Origin: Microbacterium sp. MYb54
Lineage (GTDB): Bacteria; Actinomycetota; Actinomycetes; Actinomycetales; Microbacteriaceae
Assembly: GCF_002979515.1 (NCBI RefSeq)
Contig: NZ_PCPA01000010.1
Location: 62,001-126,000, forward strand
Direction: 5' to 3'
DNA length: 64,000 bases
Below are positions 6,497 through 12,209 of the stretch, piece by piece. The position numbers were made by a program, and so were the translations under genes. The notes under the pieces are model-generated. The model worked only from the letters and a program-made list of their open reading frames with translations. It had not been told where the DNA came from and did no database searches. Every line of letters starts with the position of its first letter. The stretch's first letter is position 1.

Positions 6497-7000
6497 CTAC
6501 CCGTAGGTATCGCGCGGGCCCCGTCCTGGAACGGCTCTGGGACCCCATTTCCACGAGGGAACGTCCGGTCCGATGAAGCGGAGGTTCTCGACTCCCGCGT
6601 CGGGATACCGCCGACCGATCTCGGTGAGAATGGTCGCCCGCATGAACTGCAGGTTCTTCGCCCAAGCCGTGGAGTCGCACTTCACCGTGAGCAATCCACG
6701 CTCGAGAGAGACCGGCTCGGAGTGCTTCGCCGTGTCGGCCCCGGCGAGATCGGCCCACTGACGAACGAGGTCTTCCCTGGCCAGGGTGATCTGCCAGCCC
6801 GAATCGCGACTCAGTCGATCGAGGACCGCCCCGAGCGAACCGGGATCGCGCCCCGGCGTGAACGGGGCGTTGTCGTCATCGGTGGTGATGCGGCGCTTGC
6901 GCTTCCAGCTCTTGGAGCTCGGCTGGAGTCCGCGCAGCCGAAGATAGGTGCCGACGGTCTCCGGCACCTCGGCTGCCGGAGTCGAAGCCGCGTCAGTCAT
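6497..7000 (-). CDS. DUF721 family protein (DciA-like)
   Basis: 167 residues from the ATG at 7000, chosen because it overlaps the recF stop by 8 bp; an in-frame upstream start at 7072 would overlap recF by 80 bp and adds an unconserved segment. The C-terminal part (LSRDSGWQITLAREDLVRQWADLAG ... LTVKCDSTAWAKNLQFM ... VENLRFIG) is the DUF721 domain found next to recF/gyrB in Actinobacteria. DUF721 contains DciA, the ancestral loader of the DnaB replicative helicase, so a role in replication initiation is likely from family knowledge. The N-terminal 60 residues are basic and probably disordered. Confidence 0.85.
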   Translation of the reverse strand: MTDAASTPAAEVPETVGTYLRLRGLQPSSKSWKRKRRITTDDDNAPFTPGRDPGSLGAVLDRLSRDSGWQITLAREDLVRQWADLAGADTAKHSEPVSLERGLLTVKCDSTAWAKNLQFMRATILTEIGRRYPDAGVENLRFIGPDVPSWKWGPRAVPGRGPRDTYG

Positions 7001-8207
7001 CTTCACTCGATTCCGGCGTCTGCTCGAGAACACGCTCATCGTTGATGGTTCCGGCGCTGATCCGGACGACATGGGCGTGCAGCACCTCGGGGATATCCTC
7101 CTCCACCGCAGCGGTCACCACCACCTGCTCGTACCCGGCGGTCAGGGCGGCAAGCCGCTGGCGTCGATCGGCATCGAGTTCGGCGAAGACGTCGTCGAGG
7201 ATGAGTACCGGGTCGCCGGCAGGAGATTCACTGCGCAGCAGTTCGGCCGAAGCGAGTCGGAGCGCGAGCGCCACCGACCACGACTCCCCGTGAGAGGCAT
7301 ACCCCTTCACCGGAAGGTCGCGAACCCGCAGAACCATGTCGTCGCGGTGCGGACCGGTGAGGGTCAGCCCTCGGTCGAGCTCCTTCGATCGCTTCGCCGC
7401 GAGCGACGCACGGAAGAGATCGGCGATGTGATTCGGATCGCCGAGCCTGGTGATGGCCACCTCTTCCTCGATGTCTTCCGCCCCGTCTTCACCTTCCTCG
7501 GGGTCTCCGCCACCGACCGAAAGCGCCCATTCCAGTTGCGGACGATGATCCTCTCCGGCGATCGCTTCGTAAGCATCGGCGACCGGCTGCTGCAGATCTG
7601 CCGCCAGACGTTGACGTGCCGTGATGATCTCGGAGCCGAGGGAGACGAGCTTGTCATCCCACACGTCCAGTGTGCTCAGGCCTTCTCCGCGGATGCCCCG
7701 GGCTCGCGCCGACTTCAGCAGCGCATTGCGCTGCTTGAGCACGCGGTCATAGTCGGCGAGTACAGCAGCGAGTCTCGGTGTGCGCTGGATGAGGAGCTGA
7801 TCGGTGAAGCGGCGGCGCGCCGAGGGATCACCTCGCACGATCTGCAGGTCTTCGGGAGCGAACAGCACGACGTGCACGTAGCGGGGGAGCTCGTTCGGTT
7901 TGGACGGCGAGCCGTTGATGCGGGCCTTGTTCGATCCCTGCCGGTTCACCTGGACTTCGGCGAGCACCCGACGCTCGCCATGTGAGAGTCGGGCGCGGAT
8001 CACCGCGAACTCCTGGCCGTCGCGGACCATGGGCGCATCCGACGAAACCCGGTGGGATCCGAGCGTGGCGAGGAACACGACGGCCTCGGCCAGATTCGTC
8101 TTTCCCTGACCGTTTCGTCCGACGAGGACGTTCGGACCGCGGTGGAGGGTGAGTTCAGCGGTCGCGTAATTGCGGAAATCGACCAGGCTCAGGTGTTCCA
8201 CAATCAC
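6993..8207 (-). CDS. recF: DNA recombination and repair protein RecF
   Basis: 404-residue SMC-like ATPase that helps load RecA at single-strand gaps. Walker A is LVGRNGQGKTNLAEAV near residue 35; the ABC-type signature and Walker B lie in the C-terminal third (PVLILDDVFAELDADRRQRLA). The start is GTG, giving the standard N-terminus MIVEHLSLVDFRNY. The internal insertion GGGDPEEGEDGAEDIEEEVA is acidic and looks lineage specific. Separated from dnaN here by the amidase and cohesin genes, and coupled to the DUF721 gene downstream. Confidence 0.97.
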   Translation of the reverse strand: MIVEHLSLVDFRNYATAELTLHRGPNVLVGRNGQGKTNLAEAVVFLATLGSHRVSSDAPMVRDGQEFAVIRARLSHGERRVLAEVQVNRQGSNKARINGSPSKPNELPRYVHVVLFAPEDLQIVRGDPSARRRFTDQLLIQRTPRLAAVLADYDRVLKQRNALLKSARARGIRGEGLSTLDVWDDKLVSLGSEIITARQRLAADLQQPVADAYEAIAGEDHRPQLEWALSVGGGDPEEGEDGAEDIEEEVAITRLGDPNHIADLFRASLAAKRSKELDRGLTLTGPHRDDMVLRVRDLPVKGYASHGESWSVALALRLASAELLRSESPAGDPVLILDDVFAELDADRRQRLAALTAGYEQVVVTAAVEEDIPEVLHAHVVRISAGTINDERVLEQTPESSEDD

Positions 8208-8298: not shown

Positions 8299-10113
8299 TC
8301 AGGGAAGCGGTCCGTAGAGCGACGGAGAGGTGCGGGCACCCGTCTTCTGCTCGAACGCGTACGCCAAACCGAGCAGCGTGCCCTCATCGAAGTCCCGTCC
8401 GAGGAACTCCAGGTTCACCCCGCTGCCGGGCAGAGACTCGCCCGCGACCGTCTGCCCCATCGGAACGGTCACCGACGGCATCCCGGTGTTCGGGCTCAAC
8501 CTCATGTTGGTGCCCTGCGTCGCGTACGCATTCGTGCTCGGGTAGATGATCGCGTCGAGATCGAGATCCTCCATCGTCTGCGTCAGGAGGCTCTTGCCCG
8601 CTGCGATCTGCACGGTGTGCGAGCCGTTCGCTCCTGCCCATGCTTCATAGGTCGCGTCGGTGACGGCGTCTCGCGTTTCGTAGATCGGCCGCCGTGAGGT
8701 CACGAAACTGTTCGACGCGAGGATGTCTGTCAGCGTCCGTGCCTCCACCGCCGCACCGAGATGGGTGTCGATGTACTCGTCGAGGTCGTGTCGGAACTCG
8801 TTCGTCGATCCGGAGCCCTCGTTCAGCACAGCGGCGAGACCCGCCGGTGGTGTCACGGTAACGACGGTCGCGCCCTGCGCGGTCAGCGCCGCCGTCGCCT
8901 CAGAGAAGAGGCGAACGGTGCCGGTGTTGGTGCCGACCATCGAGGTGACGTATCCGATGCGCGCACCCTGAAGTGCGTCCGGATCGAGGAACGAGGTGTA
9001 CGAATCGGGAACCAAGCCCTGCTGCCGCGCGGTGACGGGATCAGCGTCGTCGACGCCGACGACGGCATCGAGCGCGACCGCTGCGTCGATGACCGATCGG
9101 GCCATCGGTCCGCCCGTGTCCTGCGAGAGCGCCAGCGGGATGATGCCGTCACGGCTCGCCAGGCCCACGGTGGGGCGAACACCGACGAGCTGGTTGTACG
9201 ACGAAGGCACCCGGATCGAACCGCCGGTGTCGGTGCCGAAACCGACAGCGGCGAGATTCGCCGAGATCGCGGCCCCCGTTCCTCCGCTGGATCCGCCGGC
9301 CGTCTTCGTGGTGTCATACGGGCTCGCCACGAGGGAGGTCGATCCCGGTTCCTGGAACGAGGAGAACTCGGAGACGAATCCGTAGGCGAACTCGTCGAGA
9401 CTCGCCTTCGCGAGGATCACGGCGCCGTCGCCCCGGAGACCTGTGACCATCGAGGCGTCAGTGGCCGTCTGATTCTCGTTCCAACACGCGCACCCACCGG
9501 TTGTCACCATGCCGACGGTGTCGTAGTTGTCCTTCAATGCGATCGGAACACCCAGCAGCAGGCTCGTCATCCCCTGGGAGGCTCGGATCCCATCGGCCGC
9601 CGCCGCATTTTCGAGCGCCTGCGGGTTCACCGTGATGATCGAGTTGAGAGGTCGGCTTCCGCCCGGTGCGACCGTGCGATCGTAGGCCTCGATCCGATCG
9701 AGATACTCCTGGGTGATGCTCTTCGAACTCGCGATCCCCGCGTTCATCGCCGCCTGCATGTCGATCACCGAGGCCTCGACGAGCTCGAACGGCCCATCGT
9801 CGTAGATCATCCGCTGCGACAGACCTGCGAGATCGAGGATCGTGAGCTCCCCGTCGACATCGGTATCGAGGATCGACACACGCGACCACTCCGGAGAGGC
9901 CGTCGTGAGGCCCAGCGATTCACCCGCGATCAACAGATCGGATGCGGTGACCATCGCATCGCCGGTCAGATCGAGCTCGCTGTAGTACGGCGGGAGGCTC
10001 ACGGATGCTGTCGGCGATGCGGCAACGGCAGGCACGGTCACCAGGCTTCCCGCGACGATTGCAGAACCTGCGACCGAAACGGCGGCAACGGTCCGAAGGG
10101 TGATCTTCTTCAC
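8299..10113 (-). CDS. Secreted amidase-signature enzyme with N-terminal dockerin-like domain
   Basis: 604 residues from a GTG at 10113, chosen because AGGAGAG lies 8 bases upstream and the product then begins with a clean signal peptide (MKKITLRTVAAVSVAG ... VPAVAA). An in-frame ATG at 10167 would add 18 residues. Residues 47-100 hold two dockerin-type calcium loops: DLTGDAMVTASD (48-59; D1, T3, D5, D12) and DTDVDGELTILD (83-94; D1, D3, D5, D12, all canonical), each followed by a helix. The rest is an amidase-signature hydrolase: catalytic Lys in IALKDN (about 194), GGSSGG with the cis-Ser (273-278) and nucleophile Ser in DTGGSIRVPS (about 299). Substrate unknown. It follows the cohesin gene by 50 bp in the same direction. 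Confidence 0.88.
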   Translation of the reverse strand: MKKITLRTVAAVSVAGSAIVAGSLVTVPAVAASPTASVSLPPYYSELDLTGDAMVTASDLLIAGESLGLTTASPEWSRVSILDTDVDGELTILDLAGLSQRMIYDDGPFELVEASVIDMQAAMNAGIASSKSITQEYLDRIEAYDRTVAPGGSRPLNSIITVNPQALENAAAADGIRASQGMTSLLLGVPIALKDNYDTVGMVTTGGCACWNENQTATDASMVTGLRGDGAVILAKASLDEFAYGFVSEFSSFQEPGSTSLVASPYDTTKTAGGSSGGTGAAISANLAAVGFGTDTGGSIRVPSSYNQLVGVRPTVGLASRDGIIPLALSQDTGGPMARSVIDAAVALDAVVGVDDADPVTARQQGLVPDSYTSFLDPDALQGARIGYVTSMVGTNTGTVRLFSEATAALTAQGATVVTVTPPAGLAAVLNEGSGSTNEFRHDLDEYIDTHLGAAVEARTLTDILASNSFVTSRRPIYETRDAVTDATYEAWAGANGSHTVQIAAGKSLLTQTMEDLDLDAIIYPSTNAYATQGTNMRLSPNTGMPSVTVPMGQTVAGESLPGSGVNLEFLGRDFDEGTLLGLAYAFEQKTGARTSPSLYGPLP

Positions 10114-10163
10114 GGTCTTGTCTCTCCTGTAGTCCAGCACGTGAGCTCTGACTGCACGTCGGG

Positions 10164-10919
10164 TCATGGGGTCCTCCGTCGGATGGCGATGATCGTGCCT
10201 GCGGCAGCAGCAGCGATAGCGCCGGCACCGAGAATGAGCCAGGGCGCGGCGTCAGTACCGGTGATGGCGAGCGACCCATCCGCAGCGCTGCCCGATCCCG
10301 TCCGAGGCCGTGACCCGGGCCCGGACGCGGGATCCGCGCCAACCGAGCCGTCGTCGCCCGAACCGGGCTCCGACTCGTCATCACTCGAGATCGCGACGGT
10401 CGTCGATGCGCCCTCTGCGGCCGGATCGACAGTGGACGTCTGGCCGTTCGAACCCACGATCCGACCGGATGAGAAGGCGAGTGAAGCATCCCCCTCGTCG
10501 AGTGCTGCGAATCTGAGCGTCACGAGAGTCTGTGTGCCGGCCAGACCGGGTGAAGTACCGAGCCGAGTGGCAGCGATGGCGATCTCGCCTCCCCGATCCG
10601 TCACCGAGTCGAATCCTCCGGAGGGCAACTGCTCGCTGTCGTCGATGAACGCGAGGCGCTTCGCGTCGTACGCGATGTCGAGCTCGTACGCGTAGGCATC
10701 GACGAGGCCGGTGAAGACCGCGGAGACCGTGACTGTGTCACCGACAGACACCGTGGCCGGAGTCGCCGTCAGCGACACCGTGTCATACGTGGCCGAGATC
10801 GTGACGGCGGAAGCAGGCGATGCCGCCCCCAGCGCCAGGAAGGTTGTGGCCGCGAGCACGACGACACCCGAGAGGGGGGCGCGCAGCCTGCGGAAGAGAG
10901 CACGAGCATTTTGGGGCAT
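10164..10919 (-). CDS. Wall-anchored cohesin-domain protein
   Basis: 251 residues. A signal peptide (about 1-38, ending ASPASA) is followed by one cohesin-type domain (about 45-165): VSVGDTVTVSAVFTGLVDAYAYELDIAY, then DAKRLAF, an inner Gly-rich turn, TLVTLRFAAL and the closing strand around GSNGQTSTV. A Gly/Ser/Asp-rich linker (about 178-215) leads to the sorting motif LAITG (217-221), a membrane helix and a RRR tail, as expected for a class E sortase substrate. Cohesins bind dockerins, and the next gene encodes a secreted enzyme with a dockerin-like module. It should therefore act as a surface scaffold with a single docking site. The pairing is inference; the domains are directly visible. 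Confidence 0.85.
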   Translation of the reverse strand: MPQNARALFRRLRAPLSGVVVLAATTFLALGAASPASAVTISATYDTVSLTATPATVSVGDTVTVSAVFTGLVDAYAYELDIAYDAKRLAFIDDSEQLPSGGFDSVTDRGGEIAIAATRLGTSPGLAGTQTLVTLRFAALDEGDASLAFSSGRIVGSNGQTSTVDPAAEGASTTVAISSDDESEPGSGDDGSVGADPASGPGSRPRTGSGSAADGSLAITGTDAAPWLILGAGAIAAAAAGTIIAIRRRTP

Positions 10920-11066: not shown

Positions 11067-12209
11067 TCAGCGCAGGAGGAGGTTCGGCTGAAGGAGGTAC
11101 TTGAACGAGTCGAGGCCGGCCTGGTCCACAGACGTCTGACTCGTGATCAGCACCGGGCTGAGCTTGTTGGCGTTGTCGCTCGAAGTGAACGTCACGCGGA
11201 CGAACTCGCTCTTGACCGCACCCAGTGCCTCGATCAGGTACTGCGGGTTCAGGCCGAGCGTGACCTCGTCGCCTCCGGAGAGGATCGCGTCGACCGACTC
11301 GGAGGCCCGTGCGTGATCGCCGCCTGAAGCGTCCATCGTGACGCTGTCGTTCGTGAAGGTGAAACGCAGGGGAGCGGCGCGGTCGAGCACGAGCGACACT
11401 CGGCGCACGGCCTCGACCAGGTCGGCGGTGTTGACCACCGCGTAGTGGTCGGTCTGCTCGGGGAAGAGGCGGCGGACCGGCGGGAAATTGCCCTTGATCA
11501 GGAGCGAAGTCACGGTCTTGTTGCCGGCGGTGAAGGCGATGATCTCGCGGTCACCCGCCCCGGAGAAGGCGATCTGGATGGTGCCGGCATGTCCGAACGT
11601 CTTACCGACTTCGAGCAGGGTGCGCGCAGGGACCAGGGCAGTGGCTTCGACGGCTTCGCCGTCCCACGGCACATCGCGGAGCGAAACTCGATAGCGGTCG
11701 GTGGCGACCAGGCTCAAGCTGTGCCCGGAGACCTCGAGCTGAACACCCGTGAGGACGGGGGTCACGTCGTCACGCGACGCAGCGAATCCGACCTGGGCGA
11801 TCGCGGTACCGAAGTCGTCGGCCGGGACGACACCGGAGGACCCGGTGACTTCAGGGATCGAGGGATATTCCTCGACGGGCATCGCGGCGAGCGTGAATCG
11901 AGCCGAGCCACAGGTGACGGTGATTCCGCCGTCTTCCTCGACGGCGATCTCGATCGGGGCGTTCGGAAGACGGCTGGCGATGTCAGACAGAAGCCGGCCG
12001 TGGACCAGGATCGTGCCCGGGGTGTCGACGGTCGCTTCGATGGTCGTCCGTGCGGAGGCTTCGTAGTCGAAGGCCGAGAGCGTGAGGCCTGACCCATCCG
12101 CTTCGATCAGGACTCCGGCGAGGATCGGCTGCGGGTTGCGCTGTGGCAGAAGCTTGACGACGAACGAGACAGCCTCGCTGAAGACATCGCGGTTGACCTG
12201 AAACCTCAC
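11067..12209 (-). CDS. dnaN: DNA polymerase III beta sliding clamp
   Basis: 380-residue processivity clamp that encircles DNA and tethers the replicative polymerase. The N-terminus MRFQVNRDVFSEAVSFVVKLLPQRNPQPILAGVLIEA is the usual one, and the C-terminus ends with the conserved peptide YLLQPNLLLR. Three-domain length is normal. It is separated from dnaA by 495 bp that contain the origin and is followed by a hairpin. Confidence 0.98.
   Translation of the reverse strand: MRFQVNRDVFSEAVSFVVKLLPQRNPQPILAGVLIEADGSGLTLSAFDYEASARTTIEATVDTPGTILVHGRLLSDIASRLPNAPIEIAVEEDGGITVTCGSARFTLAAMPVEEYPSIPEVTGSSGVVPADDFGTAIAQVGFAASRDDVTPVLTGVQLEVSGHSLSLVATDRYRVSLRDVPWDGEAVEATALVPARTLLEVGKTFGHAGTIQIAFSGAGDREIIAFTAGNKTVTSLLIKGNFPPVRRLFPEQTDHYAVVNTADLVEAVRRVSLVLDRAAPLRFTFTNDSVTMDASGGDHARASESVDAILSGGDEVTLGLNPQYLIEALGAVKSEFVRVTFTSSDNANKLSPVLITSQTSVDQAGLDSFKYLLQPNLLLR

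Follow-up and report, generated by a model that had tools for sequence, protein, structure and literature searches.

A conserved cohesin and dockerin-amidase gene pair in Microbacterium, predicted to act as a one-scaffold, one-enzyme surface assembly

We analyzed a 64,000-nucleotide stretch of the Microbacterium sp. MYb54 genome (contig NZ_PCPA01000010.1, positions 62,001 to 126,000), hereafter the window. It contains two adjacent minus-strand genes for predicted secreted proteins: P0001, which has a single cohesin domain, and P0002, an amidase with an N-terminal dockerin-like segment. Judged from sequence, it is quite likely that the two are dedicated partners and that a calcium-dependent cohesin-dockerin contact holds the amidase at the envelope, with one scaffold for one enzyme. 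Most of what is known of cohesin-dockerin pairing comes from anaerobes that degrade cellulose, in which many cohesins meet many dockerins. An initial annotation, made from the DNA letters of the window, had proposed such a minimal set and a survey of related genomes for the same gene pair. This survey yielded 89 distinct loci with both domains, fusions included, in one genus, several families, and a second order.

In P0001, the Pfam Cohesin family (PF00963) matched with an E value of 4.5e-9 and 37.1 bits, above the gathering cut-off of 24.1. A six-frame search of the MYb54 genome with PF00963 gave no match. We put this down to a miss in the first pass of that search, because hmmscan of P0001 passes the cut-off and a cohesin profile, A2, matches at 9.7e-46. 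A2 is an alignment of 54 rows (the window sequence and 53 of the 68 cohesins located in the survey), 51 of which were matched by the Cohesin family at E ≤ 0.01. In its motif RLGTSPGL, the residues L, G, and S are invariant, and R and P are conserved in at least 90% of the rows. P0001 by itself retrieved no relevant sequence from the PDB; profile A2 was needed, and Clostridium perfringens and cellulosomal cohesins were among its matches. An AlphaFold2 (AF2) model of the domain, made from an alignment of three rows, had a predicted local distance difference test (pLDDT) score of 73.5 and a predicted template modeling score (pTM) of 0.72. The best fold matches of this model were the C. perfringens cohesins 2w1n (Z 13.6) and 2jh2 (Z 13.3); Foldseek ranked 2vo8 and 1qzn first. 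As modeled, the domain is a cohesin beta-sandwich, in agreement with the initial description of P0001 as a secreted cohesin-type protein with an LAITG signal.

P0002 matched the Amidase family (PF01425) at 8.2e-77. The nearest solved relatives of its catalytic domain are the peptide amidases 1m21 (E 7.5e-75) and 5ac3 (7.9e-74), which we take to be from Stenotrophomonas; the alignment with them starts at residue 125-126 of P0002, C-terminal to the dockerin. The putative triad K212, cis-S293, and S317 (numbering of a longer, 622-amino-acid [aa] open reading frame [ORF]) is the same in all 64 copies aligned. The catalytic roles of these residues are presumed from the Ser-cisSer-Lys arrangement and GGSSGG region of the amidase signature family.

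The N-terminal segment of P0002 contains two putative calcium loops. Loop 2 has D at positions 1, 3, 5, and 12, as the description of a fully acidic second loop implied, and loop 1 has D, T, D, and D. We aligned the window segment with 47 of 67 related segments (alignment and profile A1, 48 rows). Loop 1 positions 1, 3, 5, and 12 and loop 2 positions 1, 3, and 12 are invariant or conserved in at least 90% of the rows; loop 2 position 5 is conserved in fewer than 90%. Pfam Dockerin_1 (PF00404) matched 46 of the 48 rows at E ≤ 0.01, and one relative (L199) reached 23.6 bits. The segment was present in 67/67 related amidase ORFs examined, weakly in the frameshifted L113, and is therefore unlikely to be a chance resemblance. 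When 59 genomes of the genus were searched with P0002 (E ≤ 1e-70), nine places matched: eight, its own among them, span the dockerin, and one (in G345:C8) does not. This dockerin-free amidase (L192; 4995-6656, minus strand) is 41% identical to P0002 and carries an LAGC sequence resembling a lipobox, by which enzymes of this kind may be anchored in another way; it is a single case.

For co-occurrence, a limited number of candidates per genome was scored (e.g., 9 in the P0001 and 19 in the A1 searches), and the lack of a match does not prove the absence of a gene. The P0001 search matched 34/299 family genomes at E ≤ 1e-3 and 47/295 genus genomes at E ≤ 1e-6. Twelve of the 34 family-level genomes were dropped as doubtful cohesins (G258, G051, G061, G077, G108, G121, G129, G165, G175, G186, G192, and G255): their matches, with E values of 1e-6 to 1e-3, covered P0001 only from residue 94 onward, near the sorting region, and the family A1 search gave no dockerin match in them. 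Approximately 10 kb (less at contig ends) was fetched around 67 matches, in 46 genus genomes besides MYb54 and in 21 of the 33 other family-level genomes. Together with two named Microbacterium loci (L001 and L002), this gave 69 stretches. A cohesin was located in 68 of them, and the 69th, L128, holds a pair according to profiles A1 and A2. Next to or in the same frame as 67 of the 68 located cohesins, we found a dockerin-amidase ORF; the exception, L075, lies at a contig end.

The reciprocal search of the genus with A1 at E ≤ 1e-3 matched 51/295 genomes, covering all 47 cohesin genomes. Thus, both partners were detected in 47 genomes, the dockerin only in four, the cohesin only in none, and neither in 244 (Fisher test, 2.6e-50, without phylogenetic correction). 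The dockerin-only genomes comprise two contig edges (G463 and G558) and two 5'-truncated amidases (G503 and G430). The truncated amidases (L144 and L142, respectively) have no recognizable signal peptide, their first loop is mostly or wholly gone, and no cohesin was found in the stretch. In G503, the truncated gene occupies the same dnaN-recF site as the window pair, and a single 5' deletion may have removed both the cohesin gene and the 5' end of the amidase gene. With 51 of 295 sampled genus genomes matching the dockerin profile, two of them by truncated copies, the supposed rarity of the adjacent pair in actinobacteria did not hold. One dockerin match was found in 47 of the 51 dockerin-bearing genus genomes. 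In three others (G428, G537, and G577; loci L147-L149), a further dockerin locus occurs, and profile A2 places a further cohesin beside each of them; in L147, the one scanned, Pfam lists no cohesin. The two matches in G445 are fragments of one broken gene.

Outside the genus sample, A1 matched 23/299 family genomes, among them a contig edge (G056) and a pair divided between two contig ends (G155). Of 347 genomes of the order, 20 were matched: five of the same genus, three with weak rows, and 12 from other families with strong hits. Each of these 12 has the pair, as does a further same-genus genome (G856). The three weak rows, from family f16, had E values of 3e-4 to 5e-4 and ORFs 95-115 aa long and were excluded as probable EF-hand proteins. 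At class level, 9/374 genomes matched at E ≤ 1e-6, and the five in f45, a family outside the order, were all pairs. The 89 loci are the window, L001, 65 of L062-L127, L128, L147-L149, L179-L190, L191, and L198-L202; L002 is counted as L083, and the frameshifted L113 is included. Seven loci have one partner: L075 and L150 (two contig ends of one genome), L143, L145, and L146 (contig edges), and the truncated L142 and L144. These roughly 90 loci hold a conserved, apparently dedicated cohesin-dockerin pair.

The arrangement of the pair varies. The cohesin gene comes first in 77 of the 89 loci and the amidase gene in nine (L067, L180, L184, L186, and L198-L202), and three loci are single-chain fusions. 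L116 and L119 share the order cohesin-dockerin-amidase at a mutual identity of only 77%; the fused arrangement has therefore lasted. L190, whose contig measures 3.7 kb and whose genome is 69% complete, has the order dockerin-amidase-cohesin-LAVTG. Because the domain orders are opposite and the families differ, the two kinds of fusion presumably arose independently. Pfam finds the cohesin and the amidase in all three fusions and Dockerin_1 in L190 only (21.0 bits, below the cut-off). L113 was rejected as a further fusion, since its linker reads as a shifted frame followed by the signal peptide of the second gene. Among the stretches tested for genomic site (L001, L002, L062-L128, and L142-L150), only L001, L002, L082-L086, and L144 share the dnaN-recF position of the window. 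The pair is patchy in the genus and seems to have been moved or re-inserted as a unit. Plasmid mobility was considered and rejected: five plasmid records matched at E ≤ 1e-60, but none reached 41% identity, and no alignment began before residue 123.

In P0001, a linker separates the cohesin domain from the C-terminal end (LAITG, hydrophobic stretch, RRR), which scored below the cut-offs of two NCBIfam sorting-signal models (17.7 versus 27 and 15.9 versus 29). In the MYb54 genome, one sortase match was found, approximately 19 kb outside the window; it belongs to class E (NF033747, 236.3 bits, cut-off 160). Class E sortases prefer LAxTG. With such a motif, a hydrophobic segment and basic residues after it, and the enzyme encoded in the same genome, P0001 is a predicted class E sortase substrate. 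To compare anchors, 84 cohesin proteins were tabulated (L002 and L083 both counted; window, L180, and L198-L202 left out). LxxTG occurs within the last 65 residues of 71 of these, in 58 cases as LAxTG. Nine, forming a divergent group (L080, L124-L128, and L147-L149), have a hydrophobic tail without LxxTG; three genomes (those of L147-L149) have this class in addition to the main one. The other four are L075 (contig end), L113 (frameshift), and two of the fusions, L116 and L119. None of the five f45 cohesin ORFs has LxxTG in its last 50 residues; among three f45 loci scanned, only L198 showed an Ig-like domain at the C-terminal end, at 30.1 against a cut-off of 35.5. The L180 cohesin frame has no sorting signal at its end. 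Because the cohesin proteins end in different ways, with a sortase signal, a hydrophobic tail, some other extension, or no anchor, the pairing is better conserved than the mode of attachment. Thus, the sortase-anchored cohesin of the initial annotation fits the window, with its LAITG and class E sortase, and does not extend to all relatives.

According to the model we favor, both proteins would be exported, and the class E sortase would join the cohesin protein to the cell wall via LAITG. The N-terminal dockerin of the amidase would fold round two calcium ions and bind the single cohesin. The surface-held enzyme could then hydrolyze an amide substrate, perhaps a peptide amide, with the products staying near the cell. 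We infer from sequence that the proteins are exported, that the dockerin binds calcium and contacts the cohesin, that P0001 is anchored, and what the enzyme acts on. The partnership is suggested by a pairing that persists when the gene order is reversed, the genes are fused, or a second copy is present, and by cases in which the partners are lost together.

Several observations weigh against this model. The cohesin fold alone is unspecific: streptococcal adhesin domains reach Z 12.8 with the same P0001 model. Dockerin_1 scores 14.6 bits in the whole window protein and 19.3 bits in the domain alone, below the Pfam cut-off of 22.9, and is not listed by Pfam in the fusions L116 and L119. In the profile check suggested at the outset, the cohesin passes its cut-off and the window dockerin stays under it, with matches in nearly all A1 rows. 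The AF2 dockerin model, made from three rows, has a pLDDT of only 43.5. Pairwise cohesin and dockerin distances correlate (r = 0.715; permutation maximum, 0.240; 64 pairs, without L001, L002, L083, and L113), but cohesin and amidase distances correlate nearly as well (r = 0.698), and the correlation fails to separate binding from co-transfer. Likewise, neighboring genes are in part found together because they are inherited or transferred jointly. Finally, L116, L119, and probably L180 retain the cohesin without a sorting signal, indicating that tethering is not the whole function everywhere.

The last point leads to an alternative that we consider unlikely, though less so than the others: the cohesin would bind the dockerin mainly to stabilize, mature, or gate the enzyme as a calcium-dependent clasp or chaperone, and anchoring would be a lineage-specific addition. 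The differing anchor types, including the five f45 cohesins without LxxTG, are consistent with it, as are the single chains L116 and L119, which lack a sorting signal and have diverged from each other, and L190, which retains cohesin and dockerin although the chain itself has a C-terminal sorting signal. However, most loci have an anchor-like end, and the lipobox on the closest dockerin-free amidase found suggests that binding to the surface matters. Accordingly small is the chance we give to the contact being an intrinsic calcium-dependent part of the enzyme and not a tether alone, with anchoring added differently by lineage. In that case, a fused plug and socket may close on itself or link chains end to end, and the system would primarily shape or switch one enzyme.

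Comparison of A1 with the PDB gave 336 matches at E ≤ 1, a further point against the partnership: the best 60 of the 336 are calmodulins or calmodulin sensors, without dockerins. For this reason, we retained the explanation that the segment in front of the catalytic domain is a common pair of EF-hands serving only its own enzyme, with the cohesin acting as an adhesin and the two genes having no more than an operon in common. EF-hand_7 matches in 22 of the 48 A1 rows and the resemblance of adhesin domains to the cohesin model fit this explanation, but the Dockerin_1 matches in A1 and a pairing that outlasts rearrangement, fusion, duplication, and loss do not, and we regard it as improbable. Even more improbable is a larger multi-enzyme assembly in which the cohesin, the dockerin, or both take unrelated partners too. 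Cohesin-dockerin systems are usually multi-partner, but in the MYb54 genome A1 and A2 found one dockerin and one cohesin at E ≤ 0.1, both at the window locus (very divergent partner domains would escape this search), as the notion of a minimal set had it; most dockerin-bearing genus genomes gave one dockerin match, and the three second copies bring their own cohesin. A cellulosome was ruled out, given the single cohesin (A2) and the single dockerin (A1), which is on an amidase and not on several glycoside hydrolases. The favored dedicated pair probably works like a one-unit cellulosome anchor, yet it is no cellulosome.

Among known systems, the non-cellulosomal cohesins of C. perfringens (NagJ GH84C and GH33; 2jh2, 2w1n, 2o4e, and 2vo8) are the closest solved relatives by fold and among the closest by profile. 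They are likewise single cohesins of secreted proteins but, according to the entry titles, modules of glycoside hydrolases, whereas the cohesin described here is a separate sorting-signal protein paired with an amidase. The two calcium loops resemble those of Pfam Dockerin_1; here, they are N-terminal in an amidase, and the window copy falls below the cut-off. Our partial literature search covered titles and abstract openings, and the pair was not described there; the survey by Peer et al. 2009 lay outside it and may list these proteins. As far as the portion of PMC11557425 covered goes, Ruminococcus anchoring scaffoldins are sortase-linked cohesin proteins, as predicted here for P0001. The Ruminococcus scaffoldin is, however, the base of a many-component cellulosome, in contrast to the one cohesin and one dockerin found in the MYb54 genome. 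According to the portion of PMC9012536 covered, cohesins and dockerins are also encoded by bacteria and archaea that are not believed to break down cellulose, and dockerin/cohesin binding was verified for archaeal versions. According to the same portion, the archaeal modules (Archaeoglobus and anaerobic methanotrophic archaea [ANME]) also lie outside cellulose degradation; the ANME sets are numerous and variable, unlike the fixed gene pair with one enzyme class found here. In the portion of PMC3544764 covered, the Cellulomonas genomes examined are reported to have no dockerins or cohesins.

The system would thus be a stripped-down, one-to-one pair with a non-sugar enzyme that recurs in Microbacterium and other actinobacteria. 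The approximately 90 natural, apparently matched pairs are material for specificity studies, and the natural single-chain versions may allow direct crystallization. The function of non-cellulosomal cohesins becomes testable in easily grown bacteria.

The features of the locus are listed in Table 1. Signal peptides were assigned by eye in both proteins. The longest ORF of the amidase gene starts at ATG 10167 (622 aa) and overlaps the cohesin gene. Since an AGGAGA-like site precedes GTG 10113 and the conservation in close relatives begins near that residue, the 604-aa start is likely to be correct, as is the gap of 50 bp between the cohesin stop codon and the GTG, which was also the distance first described for the secreted amidase gene.

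Table 1. Positions of the gene pair, its domains and motifs, and the flanking genes in the window
Feature	Coordinates	Strand	Basis
Gene 1, predicted secreted single-cohesin protein (P0001), 251 aa	10164..10919	-	Pfam Cohesin match and C-terminal sorting signal
Gene 2, predicted secreted dockerin-amidase (P0002), 604 aa from GTG 10113	8299..10113	-	Pfam Amidase match; start backed by AGGAGA and relatives
Cohesin domain, residues 39-176 of P0001	10392..10805	-	Profile match at 1.6e-9 for the domain alone; AF2 model
RLGTSPGL motif, best-conserved stretch within the cohesin family	10542..10565	-	Alignment A2
LAITG sorting motif, then hydrophobic stretch and RRR tail	10257..10271	-	Sequence
Dockerin-like domain (alignment A1)	9772..9999	-	Conservation in related amidase ORFs; Dockerin_1 matches
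Putative calcium loop 1, DLTGDAMVTASD	9937..9972	-	Sequence
Putative calcium loop 2, DTDVDGELTILD	9832..9867	-	Sequence
Amidase-signature catalytic domain	8500..9717	-	Pfam PF01425
Upstream neighbor, presumed dnaN	11067..12209	-	ORF
Downstream neighbor, presumed recF	6993..8207	-	ORF

The neighbors were named dnaN and recF on the presumption that their sequence and gene order identify them. The gene pair for the predicted secreted proteins sits within the apparent dnaA-dnaN-recF-gyrB replication cluster of the window. Elsewhere in the MYb54 genome (G000:C3:2129-2422), a stretch of a 683-aa ORF resembles the sorting region of P0001 (E 3.3e-4) and possibly marks another sortase substrate.

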